From IMG/VR virus record IMGVR_UViG_3300046804_001068, positions 1-28,321 of that record: a stretch of DNA of 28,321 nt; one strand, given 5' to 3'. Source of the DNA: a virus. The notes under the pieces are model-generated. The model made no database searches, was not told the DNA's origin, and saw only the letters and a program-made list of their open reading frames with translations. Shown here piece by piece: positions 2,667-17,495 of the stretch (positions are counted from its first letter, which is position 1; each line of letters opens with the position of its first letter). Made by a program: the position numbers and the translations under genes.

Positions 2667-5600
2667 ATGCCAGCATCAATTGTTTTATCCACGATTTATG
2701 GTTCTGCGGCAGCGGCAAGCGCTGCTTTAGGGTCAATAGGTGTAGCTGCCGCTACGTTTGCAATCAATTTTGCAGTCTCCTACGTGGTAACTCGCGCATT
2801 TGGATCTAAAGCGTCGCAGTCACAAGACACCGGAGCAAGACAACAAGTTCCTCCTGCCAGCAATAACTCAATTCCCGTTGTTTATGGCGATGCTTGGCTA
2901 GGTGGCGTTTTTGTTGATGCGGTGTTGTCTGGTAACCAGAAAGTTATGTACTACGTCATGGCGATCTCTTCTATATCGTCTGATGCCTCGGCTGCGTTTA
3001 CTTATGACACCACCAAAATGTATTACGGTGATCGTCTAATGACTTTTGACGGTACAGACGGTTCAAAGGTTATATCTCTTACGGATGGCGATGGAAACGT
3101 TGATACAAAAATAAGCGGCAATCTAAATATTTATCTTTACGTTTCCAATCAAGCGGGAACTGTTACAGGCTACAACACAGCAGATTTGCCTTGGTCTAAT
3201 GTTGTCATGGGATCTGGCAATACAGAGATTCCTGCTGGTCTCTCATGGCCTTCTACCGGTCGCAGAATGAATGGCTTGGCTTTTGCGGTTATTCGTTTGG
3301 TCTATAACGCTGATGCAGGAACGACAGGTCTTTTGCCAATTACGTTTTATTGCAAGCATTACCCTAAAGGCGGAACGGTAGCGAAACCTGGAGACGTTTG
3401 GTACGACTACATGACCAATACGCGCTACGGCGCTGGCATGACTGGATTAGTTGATTCTGCAAGCGCAACAGCTCTCAATACTTACTCCGATCAGACAATT
3501 ACTTATACCCCTGCTGGCGGCGGATCATCAACGCAAGCGCGATACAGAATTAACGGCGTTGTTGATACGGGCAGATCTGTTTTAGATAACGTTGAGAAGA
3601 TGCTTGAATGCTGTGATTCTTGGATGGCATACAACGCAGCGTCAGGTCTTTGGTCAATAGTCATAAATAAAGCAGAAACATCTAGCTTCTCATTCAACGA
3701 CACAAATTTAATTGGCGAAATCAGGGTTTCCGCTGTAGACATCAACCAGCAGATCAACCAGATTCAGATTGAGTTTCCATCTAAGCTAAACCGAGATCAG
3801 CCCGATCTGGTTTACATGGAAACACCGGCTGGGCTTTTGTACCCTAACGAACCGGCAAACAGGCAGACAACAACACTAGAGTTTACGAATGACTCTGTAC
3901 AGGCCCAATATCTAGGAAACAGAAGGTTAGAGCAAGCGCGAGAAGATCTAATCGTCACGATTACGTCTACTTATCCTGGCATTCAAGTAGACGCGGGTGA
4001 TGTGGTTGACATTACTAACGCAGACTACGGCTGGACGAACAAACTTTTCCGAGTTATGAAAGTCTCGGAGGCGACAATCGACGATGGGAATCTTGGCGCG
4101 ACACTAGAGCTATCAGAGTACAACGCGCAAGTTTATGATGATGCCAGCATCACTGCGTTTTCTGCCGCCCCTAATTCGAGCCTTCCTTCACCCGCGTACT
4201 TTTCAGCTCTGAATGCTCCGGTCATTGGTGATCTTGCTCCGAGCGCAGCTCCTCCGACATTTTCCGCGACCGTGACTTTGCCGACTAAAGGCAGAGTGAC
4301 AACGATTACTTTGTTTTACACATCGTCTGCAACACCAGCATCAACGGATTGGAAAACATGGGGTTCTGCAATTCTTTCTAACGGCGCTACTTTTACCAAT
4401 TCATCGACGTTTAAGTTTCAAAATATTAGTCTTGCCGCTGGAACTTGGTACTTTGCCTTTTCGGTAGAAAATGAAACTGCAAAGTCAACGCTATCGTCTG
4501 TAAGCGCGGCGCTAACTTGGTCTCCTACAGCTGCGGCTGGCCCAACAGGACCAACGGGGAACACAGGCCCCACGGGAGGTCAGGGGCCAACAGGTAACAC
4601 AGGCCCAACTGGAGCTTCGATTACAGGCCCTACGGGAAGCTCTGGCTTGGTAGGCATAGCATTTATAAACGCTTATTTGGTTCAGTCTCAATCAAGCGCT
4701 GCCCCTACGTTTACTACGCCAACCTCTGGGTCTGCGGTTCCTGCCGGCTGGTCATCAACTGTGCCAGCGGTAGCTATTGGTCAAGTTCTCTGGTATTTAC
4801 AAGGCAGATACAATGCAAACGCCACGACCGTCAATGGTGTGCCGGCGAATTCAACCGCGTGGACAGGCCCAATTGCCGCATCAATCTTTCAAAGTATTAG
4901 ATCGGATAATTACAATGGCCCAAACCCTCCAACTACAACAAACTTTGGAACGGTTGGCTGGTATCTAGATCAGCCTTCAGGTAATTTGTATGCCAATGCC
5001 GCTTATCTGCGCGGCGAGCTAGTCACGGGTGTTAGCGGCGCTCAGCGCATCGAAATCAATAAAAGCGCTGCTAATAAGGTAGCCGTTTACAACTCATCTA
5101 ATCAACTGATCGGGTCTTTCGGTGGAACCGGATCAAACGGTGATCCCGTTTTAGATCTTTCTCCCTTGTTAACGGGAAACTGGGCCAGGGGATCGATCAT
5201 TACAGTTCCTACTTATACAGGCCCATCTGTCGATTCGGCGCAGGGTATCTATGGGAAAACGGTTGATCTAAATTCCTTTGGTGGTTTTATAACCTGGGAC
5301 GGGTTGATACAGGCTCGCTCTGTATTCTCGGCTTCTCAGTACGATACCGGCGGATCTGGTGTTCTTGCTCAGGCAAGGATTGGGTACAAAAGTACAAGCA
5401 TTCACGCAGCCGGTTATTTCACAAATAACAATACATCATCAACAGACGTAAGGATCTGTGATAACAATGGCTATGCAATCAATATAGTTTCCGGCACATT
5501 TAGATTTGGAAGCTACACCATCGCGCAACCATCTGGGGGAACAAGTACATTCTTGCGTAATGATGGTTCGTGGGCAACGGTCGCCGCATCTAATGTTTCT

Positions 5601-6218
5601 GACCTAGCGGCATCAGCAACAACAGATACAACGAATGCAAGCAACATTACTTCAGGCTCTTTATCGGCTGCAAGGCTTGCCTCAGTAACCACAGGAGTTC
5701 TCTATTACAACGGCTCATCGCTTAGCTACAACCCTGCATTCCTAAACTCTGCCCCAACAAACTCAGGAACTGCAACGGTCAACTCAAGTAGCCAGCTAAG
5801 CATTTTGGGTTCCTCATCTACAGGGATTGCCGGCGCTTATGTTGGAACTTCTGGCGCTGGAAGCACTGTCACTCTTGCTGTACAAACTACGTCTCCATCA
5901 GATCGTAGAATCAAACAGGATATTGCCCCTATTGATTTTGGGCTAGATCTAATAAAGGGTCTTAAACCTTACACGTTTAGGCTAAAGCAAGATCCCTCTA
6001 TTCGAGGGTTTGGCTTTATGAGCGATGAGGTAAGGCCCCTAGTCGGAGAGGGTACGGCATTAGTTATGCACGATCCTAAAGCTGAATCTGCGGGGATCGT
6101 TGGGCATGACACTATCCATTATCCAAGTTACATACCAATTCTAGTAAAGGCTATACAAGAGTTGGAGCAGCGCGTAAAGGAATTAGAATTAAAGGTTCAG
6201 GCTAGCAGTACAAAATAA
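2667..6218 (+). CDS. J-like tail-tip attachment protein with collagen stretch and S74 chaperone
   Basis: This 1183-residue protein forms the distal tip of the tail. The N-terminus is small and hydrophobic (residues 1-45), followed by a lambda-J-type region with NSIPVVYGDAWLGGVFVD and, near residues 245-260, GDVWYDYMTNTRYGAGM. Both are typical of phage host-specificity proteins. Fibronectin-like strands follow. A short Gly-X-Y collagen-like stretch ([13 protein letters not shown]) covers residues 625-660, then a receptor-region candidate. The C-terminus is an S74 intramolecular chaperone: SDRRIKQDI at Ser1078-Asp1079 is the expected self-cleavage site, and the last residues form a coiled coil (LVKAIQELEQRVKELELKV). 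Tip and fibre functions therefore appear combined in one chain. Confidence 0.88.
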   Translation: MPASIVLSTIYGSAAAASAALGSIGVAAATFAINFAVSYVVTRAFGSKASQSQDTGARQQVPPASNNSIPVVYGDAWLGGVFVDAVLSGNQKVMYYVMAISSISSDASAAFTYDTTKMYYGDRLMTFDGTDGSKVISLTDGDGNVDTKISGNLNIYLYVSNQAGTVTGYNTADLPWSNVVMGSGNTEIPAGLSWPSTGRRMNGLAFAVIRLVYNADAGTTGLLPITFYCKHYPKGGTVAKPGDVWYDYMTNTRYGAGMTGLVDSASATALNTYSDQTITYTPAGGGSSTQARYRINGVVDTGRSVLDNVEKMLECCDSWMAYNAASGLWSIVINKAETSSFSFNDTNLIGEIRVSAVDINQQINQIQIEFPSKLNRDQPDLVYMETPAGLLYPNEPANRQTTTLEFTNDSVQAQYLGNRRLEQAREDLIVTITSTYPGIQVDAGDVVDITNADYGWTNKLFRVMKVSEATIDDGNLGATLELSEYNAQVYDDASITAFSAAPNSSLPSPAYFSALNAPVIGDLAPSAAPPTFSATVTLPTKGRVTTITLFYTSSATPASTDWKTWGSAILSNGATFTNSSTFKFQNISLAAGTWYFAFSVENETAKSTLSSVSAALTWSPTAAAGPTGPTGNTGPTGGQGPTGNTGPTGASITGPTGSSGLVGIAFINAYLVQSQSSAAPTFTTPTSGSAVPAGWSSTVPAVAIGQVLWYLQGRYNANATTVNGVPANSTAWTGPIAASIFQSIRSDNYNGPNPPTTTNFGTVGWYLDQPSGNLYANAAYLRGELVTGVSGAQRIEINKSAANKVAVYNSSNQLIGSFGGTGSNGDPVLDLSPLLTGNWARGSIITVPTYTGPSVDSAQGIYGKTVDLNSFGGFITWDGLIQARSVFSASQYDTGGSGVLAQARIGYKSTSIHAAGYFTNNNTSSTDVRICDNNGYAINIVSGTFRFGSYTIAQPSGGTSTFLRNDGSWATVAASNVSDLAASATTDTTNASNITSGSLSAARLASVTTGVLYYNGSSLSYNPAFLNSAPTNSGTATVNSSSQLSILGSSSTGIAGAYVGTSGAGSTVTLAVQTTSPSDRRIKQDIAPIDFGLDLIKGLKPYTFRLKQDPSIRGFGFMSDEVRPLVGEGTALVMHDPKAESAGIVGHDTIHYPSYIPILVKAIQELEQRVKELELKVQASSTK

Positions 6219-6310: not shown

Positions 6311-6793
6311 ATGGCGATCTTCAACCGTAATACGCTGACACAAGTTAGCGGTTTTGATAATCAAATTATCGCCGGTGAGCTGGTATACAACCAGAAAACT
6401 TACTGGAACCTAACACTTAACAACTCGGATGGAAGCCCAAGAGATCTAACCGGCGCAACCATCACAAGTCAAATTTTACGTCGTCAACTGTCTAATGTTA
6501 GAGACTCTCGATACGGTCTGACATTTGATATTGCCGATTATTCGCCGCCGCCAACTGCGGTAAATTTGACCATTGCAAATCAAAACCTTGCTGGTGGGTC
6601 TTTTACGCTAGTCATTGATGAGTCTACGTGGTCGGTTCTTTCCACTGATCCGCAGCTAGACATAAACGCATCAAGCCCAGTCGGATTCTCTGGGAACATC
6701 ACCATTGCCATACCCGCAAGCGGATCTACGCCGGCTCAAGATTTAATTATCTTCTTGCTATTTTTGGTTAGATCAAATGGAGTTACCAATTGA
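6311..6793 (+). CDS. Putative fibre-connector / baseplate-upper-like protein
   Basis: A 160-residue protein with ATG preceded by GTGAGGGAAT. It has no recognisable catalytic motif. The pattern [31 protein letters not shown] resembles small beta-sandwich proteins such as the N-terminal domain of BppU-type baseplate proteins, in which a polypeptide defines a deviation from a default (DLTGATI). It is immediately upstream of, and overlaps by 4 bases, the collagen-like fibre gene, so it may connect the fibre to the tail tip. Function is inferred from position; it could also be a free virion decoration protein. Confidence 0.5.
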
Positions 6794-9507
6794 GCACGAC
6801 AGTCACAGGCGCAAATCAGATCACCCTGGTTCTTGATCAGGGTGTTATTGGCCCAACGGGGCCGGCGGGAACTCCAGGCGGTCCCACAGGGGCAACGGGT
6901 CCCACGGGTGCAACCGGAGCTACAGGCGCGGCGGGAACTCCAGGCGGACCTACCGGTCCAACCGGTGCTAGCGGCGCAGTAGGAGCCACTGGCTCAACAG
7001 GTCCAACGGGAAGCAATGGTATAAATGGTCCGACGGGTCCTACAGGATCTACTGGCGCGGCAGGACCGACTGGATCAACTGGGAGCCAAGGACCCACTGG
7101 TCCGACTGGTGCGGCTAGCAGTATTGCAGGCCCTACGGGTCCAACGGGAGATTTGGGACCAACCGGTCCGACAGGAGCCGCATCAACTGTGGCTGGGCCT
7201 ACCGGTCCAACTGGAGCGCAAGGCAATGTTGGCGCAGCAGGACCGACCGGACCAACCGGAGATCAAGGTTTAATTGGCCCCACGGGTCCGACAGGGCCAA
7301 CCGGATCGACTGGAGCTGAAGGACCAACAGGTCCAACAGGCAGTCAAGGATTAACTGGCCCAACAGGTCCTACCGGTGACGCTTCTACCGTTCCCGGGCC
7401 TACCGGTCCCACGGGTGACATTGGCCCGACGGGAGCGCAAGGACCGACCGGAGTGCAGGGGCCAACCGGAAGCCAAGGCCCAACAGGAAGCCAAGGTCCC
7501 ACGGGCGATCAAGGCCCAACTGGAGTACAGGGTCCAACTGGGCCAACAGGTAATCAAGGACCGACTGGAGATACTGGCCCAACGGGAGCGCAAGGTCCCA
7601 CAGGAAGTCAGGGTGTAGTCGGGCCGACAGGCCCACAGGGTGACGCTGGGCCTACGGGGGCACAGGGGCCAACCGGACCTACAGGTGGTCAAGGCTTGAC
7701 CGGTCCAACGGGTCCAACCGGTGACGCATCCACGGTTCCTGGGCCTACGGGACCGACAGGCCCAACGGGTACGGGAACTAATATTGCCGTATCAGACGAA
7801 GGGACGCTATTAACTTCTGGCGTTACATCTTTTAATTTTGTGGGTTCTAGCGTAACCGCATCTGCGGCAGGAACAGCAGTAACGGTTACTGTCAGTGGCG
7901 GCGGAACCCCTGGTGGCTCCACTACGCAAGTCCAGTACAACAATGCGGGTGCGTTTGCGGGGTCTTCTGCGTTCACCTTTGATGGCGCACAAATCTCAAT
8001 CAACGGCATCACCGTAGGCCGTGGCGCAGGTGCTGTGGCTTCCAACACTGCGGTGGGTGCGAGTGCTTTGGCGGCGAATACGACTGGTGTAGAAAATGTG
8101 GCGGTTGGTAATCGTGCGGCTGAAAGCACTACCACACCAGCAGATGTGACTGCGGTTGGATTCCGTGCCGCTCGTGCCAATACAACTGGGGGTTCGCTGA
8201 CTGCTTTGGGTGCATATGCATTAGACGCAAATACCACAGGCAGTGCTAATACTGCCGTTGGCGTCACTGCCCTCGCCTCCAACACCACCGCCTCCTACAA
8301 CACAGCTGTTGGCTATCAGGCTGGGTATAGTAATCAGACTGGAGCAAGTAACATCGCTGTTGGCTACCAAGCCCTCTACACCAACGTCTCCGGTAACAAC
8401 AACACTGCTGTCGGTTATCAGGCGGGGAATAGCGGAACTGCTCAGGCAAACAATTCTTGGTTTGGCTACCAAGCGGGTAAATCCGCAACAGGAAACTACA
8501 ATACGGGTGTGGGCGATAGAGCGCTCTTTTCAATGCAAAGTGCTGAGAAGAATGCGGCATTTGGCATGGCGGCGTTATATTCAAACACTACTGCCTCGTA
8601 CAACACAGCCGTAGGTGCTGAAGCGCTTATTTATACCACCACTGGGGCGAACAACACCGCACTTGGATATGCAGCACTTCAAGCCAACACCACCTCCCAA
8701 CAAAACACGGCTGTCGGATACCAAGCACTTTTTAACGCACTCCCAGCAACCATATCGGTTTCCGCAGGAGCGCTTACAAACGGTGTGGAATACACCATTA
8801 CTGGTCTAGGTACGGTTAACTGGACAAGCATTGGTGCTGCATCAGCAACGGTAGGTGTTAAGTTCACCTACAACAACGTCACAATCACTGGTTCTGGTGG
8901 CTCGGTAACGCAAAACGTTAATGCCAAAAACGTGGCAATTGGTTATCAAGCTGGCGATGTAATTACCACGGGTACGGGCAATGTCATCATTGGTGGTGGG
9001 GCAGACCCAAGCGTAAATAGCGCCACAGATCAAATCGTTATTGGTAACGGCGTAACAGGACAAGCCAATACCAACGTCACCATAGGCAACGGCACAGGCA
9101 AGATTTACAACGCTTATACAGTCAACGCCACATGGACGCAAACTTCTGACGGTACGATGAAGAACGTCATTGGGCCTGATAGTTTAGGTCTTTCGTTCAT
9201 TAACCGTTTGAACCCAATCCTCTTTACTTGGAAAGCGCAAAACGACTTACCGCCAGACCATCCGTATTACGCTGAAGAAAACAAGCGTGACACCACTAGA
9301 GTCATCCACGGGTTTGTGGCGCAAGAAGTTAAAGCTGCATTAGATGCAGAGGGATGCTCAACCTTCAACGGCTGGGATCAAGGCGATGATGGTATCCAAG
9401 CTATTAGCCGTGAGATGTTTATCTCGCCGCTAGTTAAAGCCGTTCAAGAACTGTCTGCTCAAGTTGAGCAACTCAAAGCCGAACTTGCTGCACTGAAAGG
9501 AGCCTAA
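6790..9507 (+). CDS. Long tail fibre: collagen-like, beta-roll and S74 chaperone domains
   Basis: A 905-residue fibre. The start is TTG inside a TTGA overlap with the upstream stop, supported by GGAG at 6779-6782 seven bases upstream. Residues 21-327 are uninterrupted or nearly uninterrupted Gly-X-Y triplets, mainly GPTGPTG. Residues from 419 form tandem 17-residue repeats of the NTAVGYQA type, as in YadA/Hia-like trimeric beta-rolls, interrupted by a beta-rich insert at about residues 649-713. The C-terminus is an S74 self-cleaving chaperone with the candidate scissile Ser786-Asp787 and a terminal coiled coil ([17 protein letters not shown]). All three domain types are trimeric in known proteins, so this should be a trimeric receptor-binding fibre cleaved during assembly. 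Confidence 0.9.
6850..7770 (+). repeat. Collagen-like Gly-X-Y coding repeat
   Basis: About 307 codons encode Gly in every third position, mostly as GPT or GAT/GSQ/GDQ triplets. At DNA level the repeat is degenerate: GGT/GGC/GGA and CCA/CCG/CCT/CCC alternate, so it is conserved as protein rather than as identical DNA. The Y position is mostly Thr, with almost no Pro, as in bacterial and phage collagens that lack hydroxyproline. The repeat also produces long false open frames on the opposite strand. Confidence 0.93.
8044..8733 (+). repeat. Tandem 17-residue (51-nt) beta-roll repeats
   Basis: At least 13 consecutive units begin N-[TVI]-A-V-G and end in xSNTTxxx, each 17 residues (one is 16). 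At DNA level the unit is visible at 8305, 8356 and 8407, spaced exactly 51 bases with GTTGGCTA/GTCGGTTATC cores. A short second run of the same repeat resumes at 8929 (NVAIGYQAG) after an unrelated insert. The pattern matches the left-handed parallel beta-roll head of trimeric autotransporter-type adhesins. Confidence 0.88.
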
Positions 9508-15332: not shown

Positions 15333-15519
15333 ATTTGGCTTTTTGCTTCATCATTTCTTGCGCTACAAAATAAGCAGTTTCCGCTGCGTCCTCATAAATT
15401 TTTTCCAACTGTGGATCTTCGCCAAGACCTCCTTCGTTATACAAATCAACTGAGTTTTTGAAAGTTGCAATAAGAGCTTGACTGGCAAAATAATCAAGCA
15501 ATTTTATGTTCTTTATCAT
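15310..15519 (-). CDS. Small hypothetical phage protein
   Basis: This 69-residue protein begins at ATG 15519 in an ATGA overlap with the ERF gene. It reads IKLLDYFASQALIATFKN, then acidic DPQLEKIYEDAAETAYFVAQ. The 'DYFA.QAL' N-terminus and the 'ET AY..A..M' C-terminus recur in small phage proteins whose function is unknown. It is predicted helical and not membrane-bound. It sits between the annealing protein and the other small operon members. Confidence 0.55.
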   Translation of the reverse strand: MIKNIKLLDYFASQALIATFKNSVDLYNEGGLGEDPQLEKIYEDAAETAYFVAQEMMKQKAKYDSEQSR

Positions 15520-16115
15520 TTAATCCCCAATGCTGTTTTGCGTTGATCTTTAGCGGCCACAATTGCTTTCTGTAATTCAGGCTGGCCTTTGTATTCCGTG
15601 TGTAACGCCTCATAGACTTCCCTCAGCGTTTCTTTTGTCGCTCCGGCTATCAGCATCAGCTTATCGGTAAATTCTGGCGTATGCGCTTTTACTTCGTGCG
15701 TAGTTGCGTCAGCGTCGTTATCGCCTTCTGTTGGTATGCAGAACGCTTGAAAAGCTGCGTACTTGTAAGCTGCTGACATAGCCTTATTCGTTGCTTTATC
15801 GCCGCTATCCATTGCTTCACCAAAGGTCTTAACTGTGTGTTTGGTTCCGTCATGCGACGAGACAAAATCAAACTCAACCTCAACCACGACATAGAACAGC
15901 GAAGATCCGCTTTTTCCCATGCGCTCGCTAACCTCACGGCTAATCACGCGAGGCAGGATTACAAGACCGTGCTTGCTAATGATCGGAGCAAGCGCGTTGT
16001 AGACATCATCTATCCCGCGAAACCCGTATCCCTGCTGAGTGTTTCTGCGGTCTTTAGCGATACCTTGCTGGCAAAGGTCAGCAGATACTTTAGCGATTAA
16101 GTTGTAGACGTTCAT
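15516..16115 (-). CDS. ERF-family single-strand annealing protein
   Basis: A 199-residue protein; the start is ATG 16115, with GAGG just upstream (from position 16125) and six bases of spacing. Longer readings with a start at 16181 are less likely. It shows ERF-type features: YNLIAKVSADLCQQGIAK, YGFRGIDDVYNALAPIISKH, then EAMDSGDKATNKAMSAAYKY and a polar C-terminus. ERF proteins anneal complementary single strands in phages such as P22 and act with an exonuclease; a YqaJ exonuclease is downstream. It is preceded by two bases after a tiny membrane-peptide gene, so translation may be coupled to it. Confidence 0.88.
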   Translation of the reverse strand: MNVYNLIAKVSADLCQQGIAKDRRNTQQGYGFRGIDDVYNALAPIISKHGLVILPRVISREVSERMGKSGSSLFYVVVEVEFDFVSSHDGTKHTVKTFGEAMDSGDKATNKAMSAAYKYAAFQAFCIPTEGDNDADATTHEVKAHTPEFTDKLMLIAGATKETLREVYEALHTEYKGQPELQKAIVAAKDQRKTALGIK

Positions 16116-16117
16116 AG

Positions 16118-16195
16118 TTACCTCACGAACAGGAACAGCAGGAACCCGTAAAACATCCCTAACGCTACGAAAGCTATCCATTCTATTTTCCTCAT
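16118..16195 (-). CDS. 25-residue membrane peptide leading the recombination operon
   Basis: This very short frame starts at ATG 16195 with a perfect GGAG six bases upstream (complement of 16202-16205) and ends in TAA at 16118-16120. It begins MRKIEW and then has a hydrophobic run (about residues 6-24, IAFVALGMFYGFLLFLF) ending VR, that is, one membrane helix with a positive N-terminus. The stop lies two bases before the ERF start. It could be a real single-pass membrane peptide or a leader/coupling peptide. The strong ribosome-binding site argues it is translated. Confidence 0.6.
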   Translation of the reverse strand: MRKIEWIAFVALGMFYGFLLFLFVR

Positions 16196-16282
16196 GTAAA
16201 ACTCCGTTAAGTAAGAAATTTCACTATAAAACAAGTATCTTAGACTTATGCACACCGGCAGACGAAAGGCGGTAACTAACAG
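16196..16282. promoter_or_regulatory. Divergent control region
   Basis: The 87-base, AT-rich gap separates the minus-strand operon from the plus-strand gene at 16283. It must contain promoters for one or both directions. On the minus strand TATAGT (complement of 16223-16228) is a possible -10 element, with only a weak -35. An imperfect 15-bp palindrome, AAGTATCTTAGACTT (16233-16247), overlaps it and could be an operator. No single arrangement is convincing. Confidence 0.4.
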
Positions 16283-16597
16283 ATGAGCGGTAAATCACCA
16301 ACACAAAGATCACTGGAAAAGCTCAGATCTGAAGGCTATCTCTGCCAGATCGTCGAGCGCTGGAACCCTCACGCAAAGATCAGGCAAGACCTATTCGGCA
16401 TAGGCGACATACTGGCTATAAAACCCGGTGAAACGCTACTGGTGCAGACTACAAGCCGGGGTAACGTTGCTGCCAGGGTAACCAAAATTCAAGAATCCGA
16501 GCATCTGTCTACGATTCTGGCGGCAGGCTGGAAGATCACCGTTCACGGATGGGGAAAACTGAAGGCAGGATGGACTTGCAAGATCGTGGATTTCTAA
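16283..16597 (+). CDS. PD-(D/E)xK-like nuclease/resolvase-like protein
   Basis: A 104-residue protein that reads SPTQRSLEKLRSEGYLCQIV, then RQDLFGIGDILAIKPGETLL and VQTTSRGNVAARVTKI. The Asp in GIGD and the strand bearing QTT occupy the positions of the PD-(D/E)xK active site. The second acid is Gln, a variant seen in related phage and resolvase-like proteins. I think it is a small nuclease-fold protein, possibly a Holliday-junction-type or restriction-like enzyme, but activity is not certain. It is the first plus-strand gene of the right-hand early region, followed by the noncoding region. Confidence 0.55.
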   Translation: MSGKSPTQRSLEKLRSEGYLCQIVERWNPHAKIRQDLFGIGDILAIKPGETLLVQTTSRGNVAARVTKIQESEHLSTILAAGWKITVHGWGKLKAGWTCKIVDF

Positions 16598-16603
16598 TAC
16601 AAT
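16576..16603 (+). promoter_or_regulatory. Sigma-70-like promoter of the structured RNA
   Basis: TTGCAA (16576-16581, four of six consensus) is separated by 16 bases from TACAAT (16598-16603, five of six). The predicted start is near 16608-16611, exactly at the GGG that opens the first hairpin of the RNA candidate. The -35 element lies in the last codons of the nuclease-like gene and the -10 begins right after its stop. Activity was not tested. Confidence 0.6.
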
Positions 16604-16607
16604 AAAA

Positions 16608-16755
16608 GGGTCGGTGTGGCAACCGGCAGAGCTGAGTACAACCCCAGAGTATTTAGGTGGGGCTTGTGTGGTCACAATGTCTTACTCAGCAGACTGCGTG
16701 ATTGCCCAACGCCAAAGGGCCTTGCCCCTCCTAAGTGTTCTGGGGTTTTTCTTTT
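16608..16755 (+). ncRNA. Structured small RNA candidate with promoter and terminator
   Basis: About 145 bases between a promoter and TTTTTCTTTT. Predicted pieces: a 5' hairpin (16610-16615 with 16622-16627, loop GTGGCA), and a long helix of CCCCAGAGTATTTAGG (16642-16657) with CCTAAGTGTTCTGGGG (16730-16745). That is 16 uninterrupted pairs including three G-U. After one T-T mismatch, GGGGC (16659-16663) pairs with GCCCC (16724-16728). A 5-bp hairpin sits directly on top (TTGTG/CACAA, 16664-16677) and a small one at 16696-16712. GCTGAGTA (16631-16638) is perfectly complementary to TACTCAGC (16683-16690), which would form a pseudoknot or an alternative fold. No coding sequence fits. No known RNA family was recognised. 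Confidence 0.62.
16724..16755 (+). terminator. Intrinsic-terminator end of the structured RNA
   Basis: The 3' arm of the long helix (GCCCCTCCTAAGTGTTCTGGGG, positions 16724-16745) is followed directly by TTTTTCTTTT. Helix plus U-tract is the layout of a Rho-independent terminator, although the loop is unusually long (about 60 bases). Confidence 0.6.
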
Positions 16756-17001
16756 GGTAGCTGACCGTACTCCGAGCGTTATCAAGATCCTGCATGGGAT
16801 GCGCGGAAGAAAACACCGGCTGGCGAAACACCCCGTTTCATGCCGATCCAGACTGTCAGTGAGGTACTGGACAAAGCCTCTTGTACATGGGTGGGACAAG
16901 CAAGAGGTGGAGAGAATCGCTGGCTTAGGCTGTACTAGGCAGGGAACATCCAGAAGCGACCCCTGCTGGGTAAGGTGAGTGCTACCACCCTTGGGGGAAC
17001 T
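16756..17001. other. GC-rich noncoding stretch with several hairpins
   Basis: No convincing gene is seen. Long readings on both strands (for example 16616-16978) give Arg/Cys-rich, non-protein-like sequences. Local inverted repeats are frequent: GAAAC/GTTTC (16825-16829 and 16835-16839, with GGC/GCC flanks), CCTCTTG/CAAGAGG (16877-16883 and 16901-16907), GCAGGG/CCCTGC (16939-16944 and 16961-16966), and GGTG/CACC (16974-16977 and 16986-16989). It may be a second structured RNA, a leader of the replication operon, or part of an origin. Confidence 0.35.
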
Positions 17002-17175
17002 ATGCCCAAAACTAAACAAATACGCTTATCTGCTGAAATCAACCATTCATCAGCCCAAGAAACAAAACTAAACACTGCTCTTAAATTCCGATCTAGACTT
17101 TCCCTGTCGCAACTACCAGGAGAAATAAATTGGAAGGTTTCGAGGAGTTCTGGCAACAGTACCCACGAAAGGTAG
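17002..17175 (+). CDS. Possible small gene (57 aa), doubtful
   Basis: The ATG at 17002 has a good GGGGGA sequence immediately upstream (16993-16998) and opens a 57-residue frame (MPKTKQIRLSAEINHSS) that overlaps the next gene by 46 bases. The sequence is polar, low-complexity and without recognised features, and it runs across the repeat region. It may be real or may be a by-product of the origin-like sequence. Confidence is low. Confidence 0.2.
   Translation: MPKTKQIRLSAEINHSSAQETKLNTALKFRSRLSLSQLPGEINWKVSRSSGNSTHER
17007..17074 (+). repeat. Two 12-bp direct repeats before the replication-type gene
   Basis: CAAAACTAAACA occurs at 17007-17018 and 17063-17074, 56 bases apart. Between them is an inverted pair GCTGA/TCAGC. 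The area is AT/CA-rich, in contrast with the GC-rich stretch just before it. It lies just upstream of the gene at 17130, which has a replication-protein domain. Iteron-like repeats of this kind are typical of phage replication origins, so this is an origin candidate. With only two repeats it could also be chance. Confidence 0.4.
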
Positions 17176-17495
17176 CCAAGAGAGCAGCGCAAAAGGCTTG
17201 GCTAAAGATGAGCTATCAAGAGCGGCAAGATGCAATACAAGCAGTCAAGAATCACAAGCGGTACTGGACGATCAAATCGACTGCAAGTGAATTTATGCCA
17301 CATCCCGCTACATGGCTTAATCAAGCACGATGGGAAGATGAGCTAGACATGACCCACCACGAGAAAGCAGTTAATTGGTGGGCAACAGAAAAAGGGACCG
17401 CTGAAATGGCGGAAAAAATTGGATGTCCCGCAAGGCCGGGAGAGGATTGGAATCAATGGAAAACACGGATCTCGGAAAAGCTGAAAAGCGCATAG
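17130..17495 (+). CDS. Phage replication protein C-terminal-domain-like protein
   Basis: A 121-residue protein that starts at TTG 17130 with CAGGAG seven bases upstream. It reads (M)EGFEEFWQQYPRKVAKRAAQ, then SYQERQDAIQAVKNHKRYW and EFMPHPATWLNQARWEDEL. This 'FW..YP.K....A..AW' ... 'HPATWLN..RW.DE' module is the C-terminal part of many phage replication-initiation proteins (O/DnaD-type). The usual N-terminal winged-helix part is missing, so it is a stand-alone domain or a reduced initiator. The position next to the origin candidate supports a replication role. Confidence 0.65.
   Translation: MEGFEEFWQQYPRKVAKRAAQKAWLKMSYQERQDAIQAVKNHKRYWTIKSTASEFMPHPATWLNQARWEDELDMTHHEKAVNWWATEKGTAEMAEKIGCPARPGEDWNQWKTRISEKLKSA

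Follow-up and report, generated by a model that had tools for sequence, protein, structure and literature searches.

A Phage RNA Family with a Helix Crossing Its Terminator-like Stem near Replication and Recombination Genes

Positions 16610–16755 of a 28,321-base virus record (IMG/VR IMGVR_UViG_3300046804_001068; this whole stretch is called the window) encode a phage non-coding RNA, the A1 subtype of a large family that is absent from Rfam 15. The genes for terminase, endolysin, Erf, YqaJ and methyltransferase proteins indicate that the window derives from a tailed phage. We propose that the RNA is promoter-driven and terminator-gated, and that it would occur as a short form (A) and as a long form (A–B) that continues into a second structured RNA, near the replication and recombination genes of the phage. 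We assign this reading a probability of about 0.5.

Results and Discussion

The earlier note on this DNA had described a 5′ hairpin, a long helix with three G-U pairs, a GGGGC/GCCCC extension, an 8-bp pairing and a U-tract. All of these elements are present (Table 1). Folding of positions 16600–16755 gave a minimum free energy of −65.1 kcal/mol (z = −3.99), and none of 200 shuffled sequences was equally stable. The terminator stem P2 consists of 18 unbroken pairs (16640–16657 with 16730–16747, three of them G-U) followed by a U·U mismatch and GGGGC/GCCCC (16659–16663 with 16724–16728). The inner hairpin has UACUCAGC as its entire loop, the complement of the upstream strand GCUGAGUA. These two strands form the helix P1, which crosses P2. 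The stem of H1 contains on average 5.15 bp across the family as opposed to 3.88 bp in shuffled sequences, and all 98 relatives tested carry a U-tract with 5–8 T among the first 8 bases.

Table 1. Features of the RNA locus and its flanking genes in the window
Feature	Positions	Strand	Basis or remark
Erf-like ssDNA-annealing protein gene, divergent	15516–16181	−	Pfam ERF, 7.5e-23
104-aa gene, anchor for finding relatives	16283–16597	+	no Pfam or PHROG match
−35 hexamer TTGCAA	16576–16581	+	sigma70-like match
−10 hexamer TACAAT	16598–16603	+	sigma70-like match; abuts stop codon (16595–16597) of upstream gene
H1, 5′ hairpin GUCGG...CCGGC	16610–16627	+	fold; stem pairs counted in 19 relatives; likely +1 at 16610
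H1 loop GGCA, proposed partner UGCC (16703–16706)	16618–16621	+	4 pairs in 19/19 A1 sequences
P1 5′ strand GCTGAGTA (= GCUGAGUA), hypervariable	16631–16638	+	complementarity to own loop
P2 terminator stem, 5′ arm	16640–16663	+	conserved complementarity
Inner hairpin in P2 loop, presents P1 3′ strand	16672–16701	+	some two-sided changes (e.g. L263, L280)
P1 3′ strand TACTCAGC (= UACUCAGC), inner-hairpin loop	16683–16690	+	complementarity to own strand
P2 terminator stem, 3′ arm	16724–16747	+	fold, conserved complementarity
U-tract TTTTTCTTTT	16746–16755	+	ends at 16755
P0 3′ strand GCUGAC	16760–16765	+	pairs with 16610–16615
Element B, second structured RNA	16765–17006	+	comparative consensus fold
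Replication-initiation-like protein gene	17130–17495	+	phrog_9474, E 1.4e-15

The promoter-like sequence TTGCAA-N16-TACAAT, also claimed before, matches the sigma70 consensus at 9 of 12 positions and is the only such site within 16400–17200, where shuffled sequences contain 0.6 sites on average. It spans positions 16576–16603 and overlaps the 3′ end of the 104-aa gene. The corresponding sequences of relatives score a mean of 9.5 of 12 consensus matches (6.9 in shuffles). In 61 of 65 anchored members, the 5′ strand begins 6–7 nt past the −10 hexamer. Since this spacing holds across the family, transcription more likely starts at G16610 than at the GGG at 16608, where the earlier note had placed it.

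To collect relatives with RNA A we used the upstream 104-aa gene and two RNA patterns. Since alignment with MAFFT misplaces the hypervariable P1 strand, P1 was evaluated by comparing the complementarity of each strand to its own and to swapped loops. Fourteen distinct P1 strands form 7–10 bp with their own loop strand. The summed helix length is 119 bp with the own loops and 63 bp with loops swapped; none of 20,000 permutations reached as high a value, a count that, like the other permutation counts given here, somewhat overstates significance since the sequences are not independent (distinct helices were deduplicated). The two strands change jointly from one relative to another (GCUGAGUA/UACUCAGC, UGAACGAAGA/UCUUCGUUCA, GAAUCGAGA/UCUCGAUUC, CACCCGAUUA/UAAUCGGGUG, CAGGAAG/CUUCCUG and GAAACAAGA/UCUUGUUUC). 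The window and its relative L084 are 36% identical in the P1 columns and 99% identical elsewhere. Because both strands change together, P1 is, at the level of sequence covariation, proved to be a genuine crossing helix. The earlier note had suspected a pseudoknot at this place and had regarded a lack of compensatory changes in related phages as a refutation of the proposed RNA; such changes turned out to be abundant.

P2 itself is nearly invariant, so its assignment has other bases: conserved complementarity, folding energy, and the recurrence of this architecture, built from different sequences, in the other subtypes. Among 19 A1 sequences, 15 of 23 P2 pairs are invariant and 96.6% of cells are paired, a degree of conservation that is overstated because the search patterns themselves fix parts of P2, as well as parts of A2 and B; the covariation tests use variable strands outside these patterns. 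The four pairs proposed between the H1 loop and its partner are invariant in A1 and are therefore not proved by covariation. The equivalent pairing does covary in subtype A2.

A stem with a U-tract directly after a gene might also be nothing but an ordinary intrinsic terminator of that gene, with a loop that is complementary to the preceding strand by chance. Such an account is at odds with the permutation result for P1 and with an architecture that is common to unrelated gene contexts. Covariation refutes chance complementarity, and we give this explanation practically no credence. A coding explanation, which the earlier note had named as a possible refutation of a regulatory RNA, could be rejected as well since the length differences among the A1 members are not multiples of three. 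No reading frame is open in all A1 members, most of which contain stop codons in two or three of the frames. The frames 16614–16760 and 16616–16978 are open in the window and are not conserved.

Linkage between A and B was examined with a subtype-blind test that is anchored on the conserved start of B and covers 109 distinct upstream regions. In 99 of these, a terminator-like stem with a T-run ends 2–33 nt (median 14) before B. In 98 of the 99, the loop of this stem pairs with the 45 nt that precede the stem through 6–13 Watson–Crick pairs (mean 7.74 bp with the own loop, 5.01 bp with swapped and 5.02 bp with shuffled loops). The terminator loop of subtype A2 has the loop of H1 as its partner (19 helices; mean 7.63 bp versus 4.68 bp by permutation, 0/10,000), and for the loop pairing of subtype A3, with 6 helices only, 30 of 10,000 permutations did as well. 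Our simple detector found no A upstream of 10 of the 109 B elements. Family members share a hairpin at +1, a loop-to-5′ pairing across the terminator stem, a U-tract, and a structured RNA that follows directly.

The composition of the loci varies. Four of the A-negative loci (L305, L322, L327 and L387) contain another RNA inserted between A and B, and L298, L321 and L370 carry further structured domains inside B. Both kinds of insertion are often closed by a stem of the GAUGAUGG/CCAUCAUC type. These inserted domains suggest cassettes of RNA modules. At least three RNA-like elements that follow A2 are unrelated in sequence to B; A2 is followed by B3 in L134, L142 and L153, by B4 in L138, L139 and L225, and by another type in L062 and L133.

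Element B is itself supported by 18 divergent homologues, in which 30 of 43 consensus pairs are changed on both sides. Its 5′ hairpin ACUCC/GGAAG is conserved, with GUC/GAC and GAU/AUC in relatives. P0 is a pairing between the very 5′ end of A and the spacer that separates the U-tract from B; it extends precisely to the first C of B. Among 65 anchored members, positions 1–4 of P0 are paired in 92%, and positions 5–10 are paired at a fraction of 0.65 with the own partner and 0.56 with swapped partners (0/5,000 permutations). Examples are GUUGCCGUAGGAA/UUUCUACGGCAGC and GUUGUCGUAG/CUACGACAGC. Sequence comparison also reveals P0, with up to 12 bp, where A2 precedes unrelated elements (L138, L225, L151); it was not found in 14 A2 loci where B3 is next. 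Because the conserved P0 pairing and RNA B reach to about 17006, the feature does not end at 16755 as claimed before.

H1 and P0 exclude each other because they use the same 5′ strand. The P0 duplex has a median energy of −10.1 kcal/mol compared to −5.5 kcal/mol for H1 and is the stronger one in 57 of 65 members. The window is an example of a weak P0, with six pairs, two of them G-U, and −7.5 kcal/mol against −9.7 kcal/mol for H1. The switch that the earlier note had hinted at is therefore borne out in part: mutually exclusive pairings exist, formed by H1 and P0 and not by the 8-bp helix for which an alternative fold had been considered. Since P0 can form only once the polymerase has passed the terminator, selection appears to have acted on the read-through RNA. 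The notion of an independently transcribed regulatory RNA consequently holds for a structured non-coding RNA that has a promoter-like sequence and a terminator of its own, and is incomplete in that the read-through product A–B also appears to be selected, as P0 and B indicate.

These observations bear on a different role, in which A would be a stand-alone trans-acting small RNA that binds, for example, RNA polymerase, a nuclease or an RNA chaperone, with B being independent and read-through incidental. Such a role would agree with the promoter-like sequence and terminator that nearly all members possess, with the compact tertiary fold, with P2 and loop sequences that are nearly invariant in A1, as expected of a bound surface, and with loci where the next gene lies on the opposite strand. 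It is harder to reconcile with the conserved P0, which requires sequence beyond the terminator, and with the position of B. The interval between A and B (median 14 nt) is too short to hold a promoter, and 16400–17200 of the window contains a single promoter-like site. We consider a purely trans-acting role possible but rather unlikely.

The genes around the RNA point to replication and recombination. Of the 109 loci, 45 have an Erf-like gene on the other strand some 2 kb upstream of the RNA, and 22 encode a replication protein downstream in the orientation of the RNA. Exonuclease genes are present in 23 and 18 loci, and SSB-like genes in 14; these families were named by way of window homologues and by inspection. 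The closest conserved reading frame downstream shares the strand of the RNA in 58 loci and lies opposite to it in 24. Many of the opposite-strand frames resemble, on inspection, antisense frames of the replication gene. Genuine opposite-strand next genes are found in L268, L273, L288 and L386, so that the function must go beyond the control of a downstream operon. A–B is tied to the replication region, and is not always an operon leader. Some A–B loci adjoin terminase genes.

This location raises the question of whether A–B might serve as a replication preprimer or origin RNA comparable to ColE1 RNA II, with alternative 5′ pairings deciding on priming. The locus indeed sits at the divergent Erf/Rep junction, where the GC skew of the window switches near 16 kb, and its 5′ strand does have alternative pairings. 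Yet gene orientation confounds the skew, the consensus fold of B pairs its G-rich 3′ part with its beginning, and terminase genes adjoin some of the loci. On balance, we regard an origin function as very improbable.

The P1 c4 and P4 CI RNAs are encoded with short complementary strands in a leader beside replication or antirepressor genes. By analogy, A could act as an immunity or copy-control RNA that provokes premature termination while the leader of a co-infecting phage from the same specificity group is being transcribed. Specificity groups of this kind would explain the hypervariable strands: hypervariability is confined to P1 and the loop-pairing strands while the rest is 97–99% identical, the 5′ strand has two complementary sites within its own leader, and replication genes adjoin the locus. 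In A, however, the complementary strands pair intramolecularly, and this pairing of each strand within its own RNA would compete with pairing in trans. Further copies of either P1 strand were not found in the 28-kb window. We therefore judge immunity by A to be improbable.

None of the cultured phages examined carries the RNA slot. Positions 16250–17150 showed no DNA similarity to cultured phages. The RNA slot after the anchor gene is absent from three cultured phages according to their annotation, and from MW202481 according to its sequence. Searching cultured phages with other family members returned a single match, MW202545, a complete environmental genome with an A5 member that follows a tRNA array and has a consensus promoter. 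In this genome (L395, MW202545.1, 2443–2900) the A5 RNA and the next RNA are annotated as hypothetical proteins. A general association with tRNA clusters could be rejected since only 1 of 60 loci scanned has tRNAs near A–B. Locus L300 encodes a tRNA-like gene (3327–3442, minus strand; Rfam tRNA, 33.7 bits) that ARAGORN missed; a 51-nt stretch of this gene is absent from the alignment shown. Among cellular genomes, the B pattern occurred in one Burkholderiales MAG contig only. Elsewhere in the window, positions 6790–9507 (plus strand) encode, by translation, a 905-aa tail-region protein with long collagen-like GPTG repeats.

In agreement with the earlier note, which had recognized no known family, Rfam 15 gave no match to A, nor to B. 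In the window there were 0 matches at the gathering threshold, and a relaxed search of 16560–17160 returned only MIR831 (14.8 bits versus 100, E 3.1). Another 27 loci gave no credible Rfam match to A or B. We found no account of this arrangement in the open-access literature. The Rfam model for 6S RNA has no match in the window.

Some known RNAs nevertheless share traits with A. The int-alpA RNA (RF02996), which has a different fold and matches relatives and not the window, fills the same promoter slot after the same gene in L005, L017, L027 and L036, and follows A–B in series in L057 and L060. Since int-alpA stands in place of A–B in the first four relatives and behind it in the last two, the slot attracts structured RNAs. 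The int-alpA carriers L005, L017 and L057 are phages close to the window, where this RNA lies directly behind the promoter slot and upstream of HNH or replication genes (3052–3120, 5336–5404 and 5766–5833, respectively). In the case of the lambda pR′-tR′ leader (6S RNA), a strong promoter, a short leader and a terminator open a phage transcription unit that is controlled by Q antitermination. A has the same elements, and differs by its pseudoknotted terminator loop, by P0, and by the second structured RNA past the terminator. None of ten downstream proteins in the window, which is a 28-kb fragment, has a Q-like PHROG match. ToxI of type III toxin–antitoxin systems resembles A as a pseudoknotted RNA with a terminator and a further element. 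In contrast to ToxI, the terminator of A is followed by RNA B and then by a replication-initiation-like protein instead of a toxin, and positions 16500–17150 contain no tandem repeats. GOLLD and ROOL are, like A, structured phage RNAs of unassigned role that are sometimes found near tRNA genes, as is the A5 member of MW202545, but they measure several hundred nucleotides compared to about 145 nt for A, and their Rfam models do not match. The most instructive parallel is offered by the abundant large non-coding RNAs of phage ICP1, which have been likened to GOLLD and ROOL (PMC7567579).

How might a promoter-driven, terminator-gated RNA of this design work? The polymerase would start at 16610 from the strong host-type promoter, and the first bases would form H1. 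The H1 region and the next strand would then pair with the loop of the terminator stem by way of P1 and the loop pairing, affording a compact pseudoknot. Since the 3′ strand of P1 emerges before the 3′ arm of P2, P1 could form first and join the P2 arms despite the large loop. In that case the pseudoknot would favor the terminator instead of impeding it. The product A would be a compact RNA of 140–146 nt that ends at the U-tract. A fraction of polymerases may read through, adding the P0 partner and B to give a differently folded long RNA, in which the first bases would re-pair with the spacer beyond the terminator, displacing H1 and closing the A domain. Termination and read-through, combined with the choice between H1 and P0, would allow the locus to set the ratio and the fold of A and A–B, and possibly to affect the replication genes. 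Several observations count against this reading. An 8-nt loop that is fully paired to a strand one base away from P2 is sterically tight, and the weak P0 of the window, the opposite-strand next genes, the A2–B3 loci without P0 and the few B elements without A must be added to this list. Whether the family constitutes a previously unrecognized class of phage RNA switch, characterized by a loop-pseudoknotted terminator, a 5′ strand that changes partners, interchangeable structured-RNA cassettes and orthogonal hypervariable pairing strands, is a tentative idea that we consider possible rather than probable.

Conclusions

Phage genomes are considered poor in non-coding RNA outside of tRNAs and a few known families. 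RNA A represents a family that is widespread in uncultured phages and whose knotted fold hundreds of related viral sequences retain. Paired mutations prove several of its helices. Annotation has missed this family, as the hypothetical proteins of MW202545 illustrate. Its conserved and mutually exclusive 5′ pairings flank a terminator, and its pairing strands evolve far faster than the rest of the RNA. The family thereby provides a testable case of terminator-linked RNA tertiary structure beside replication genes.
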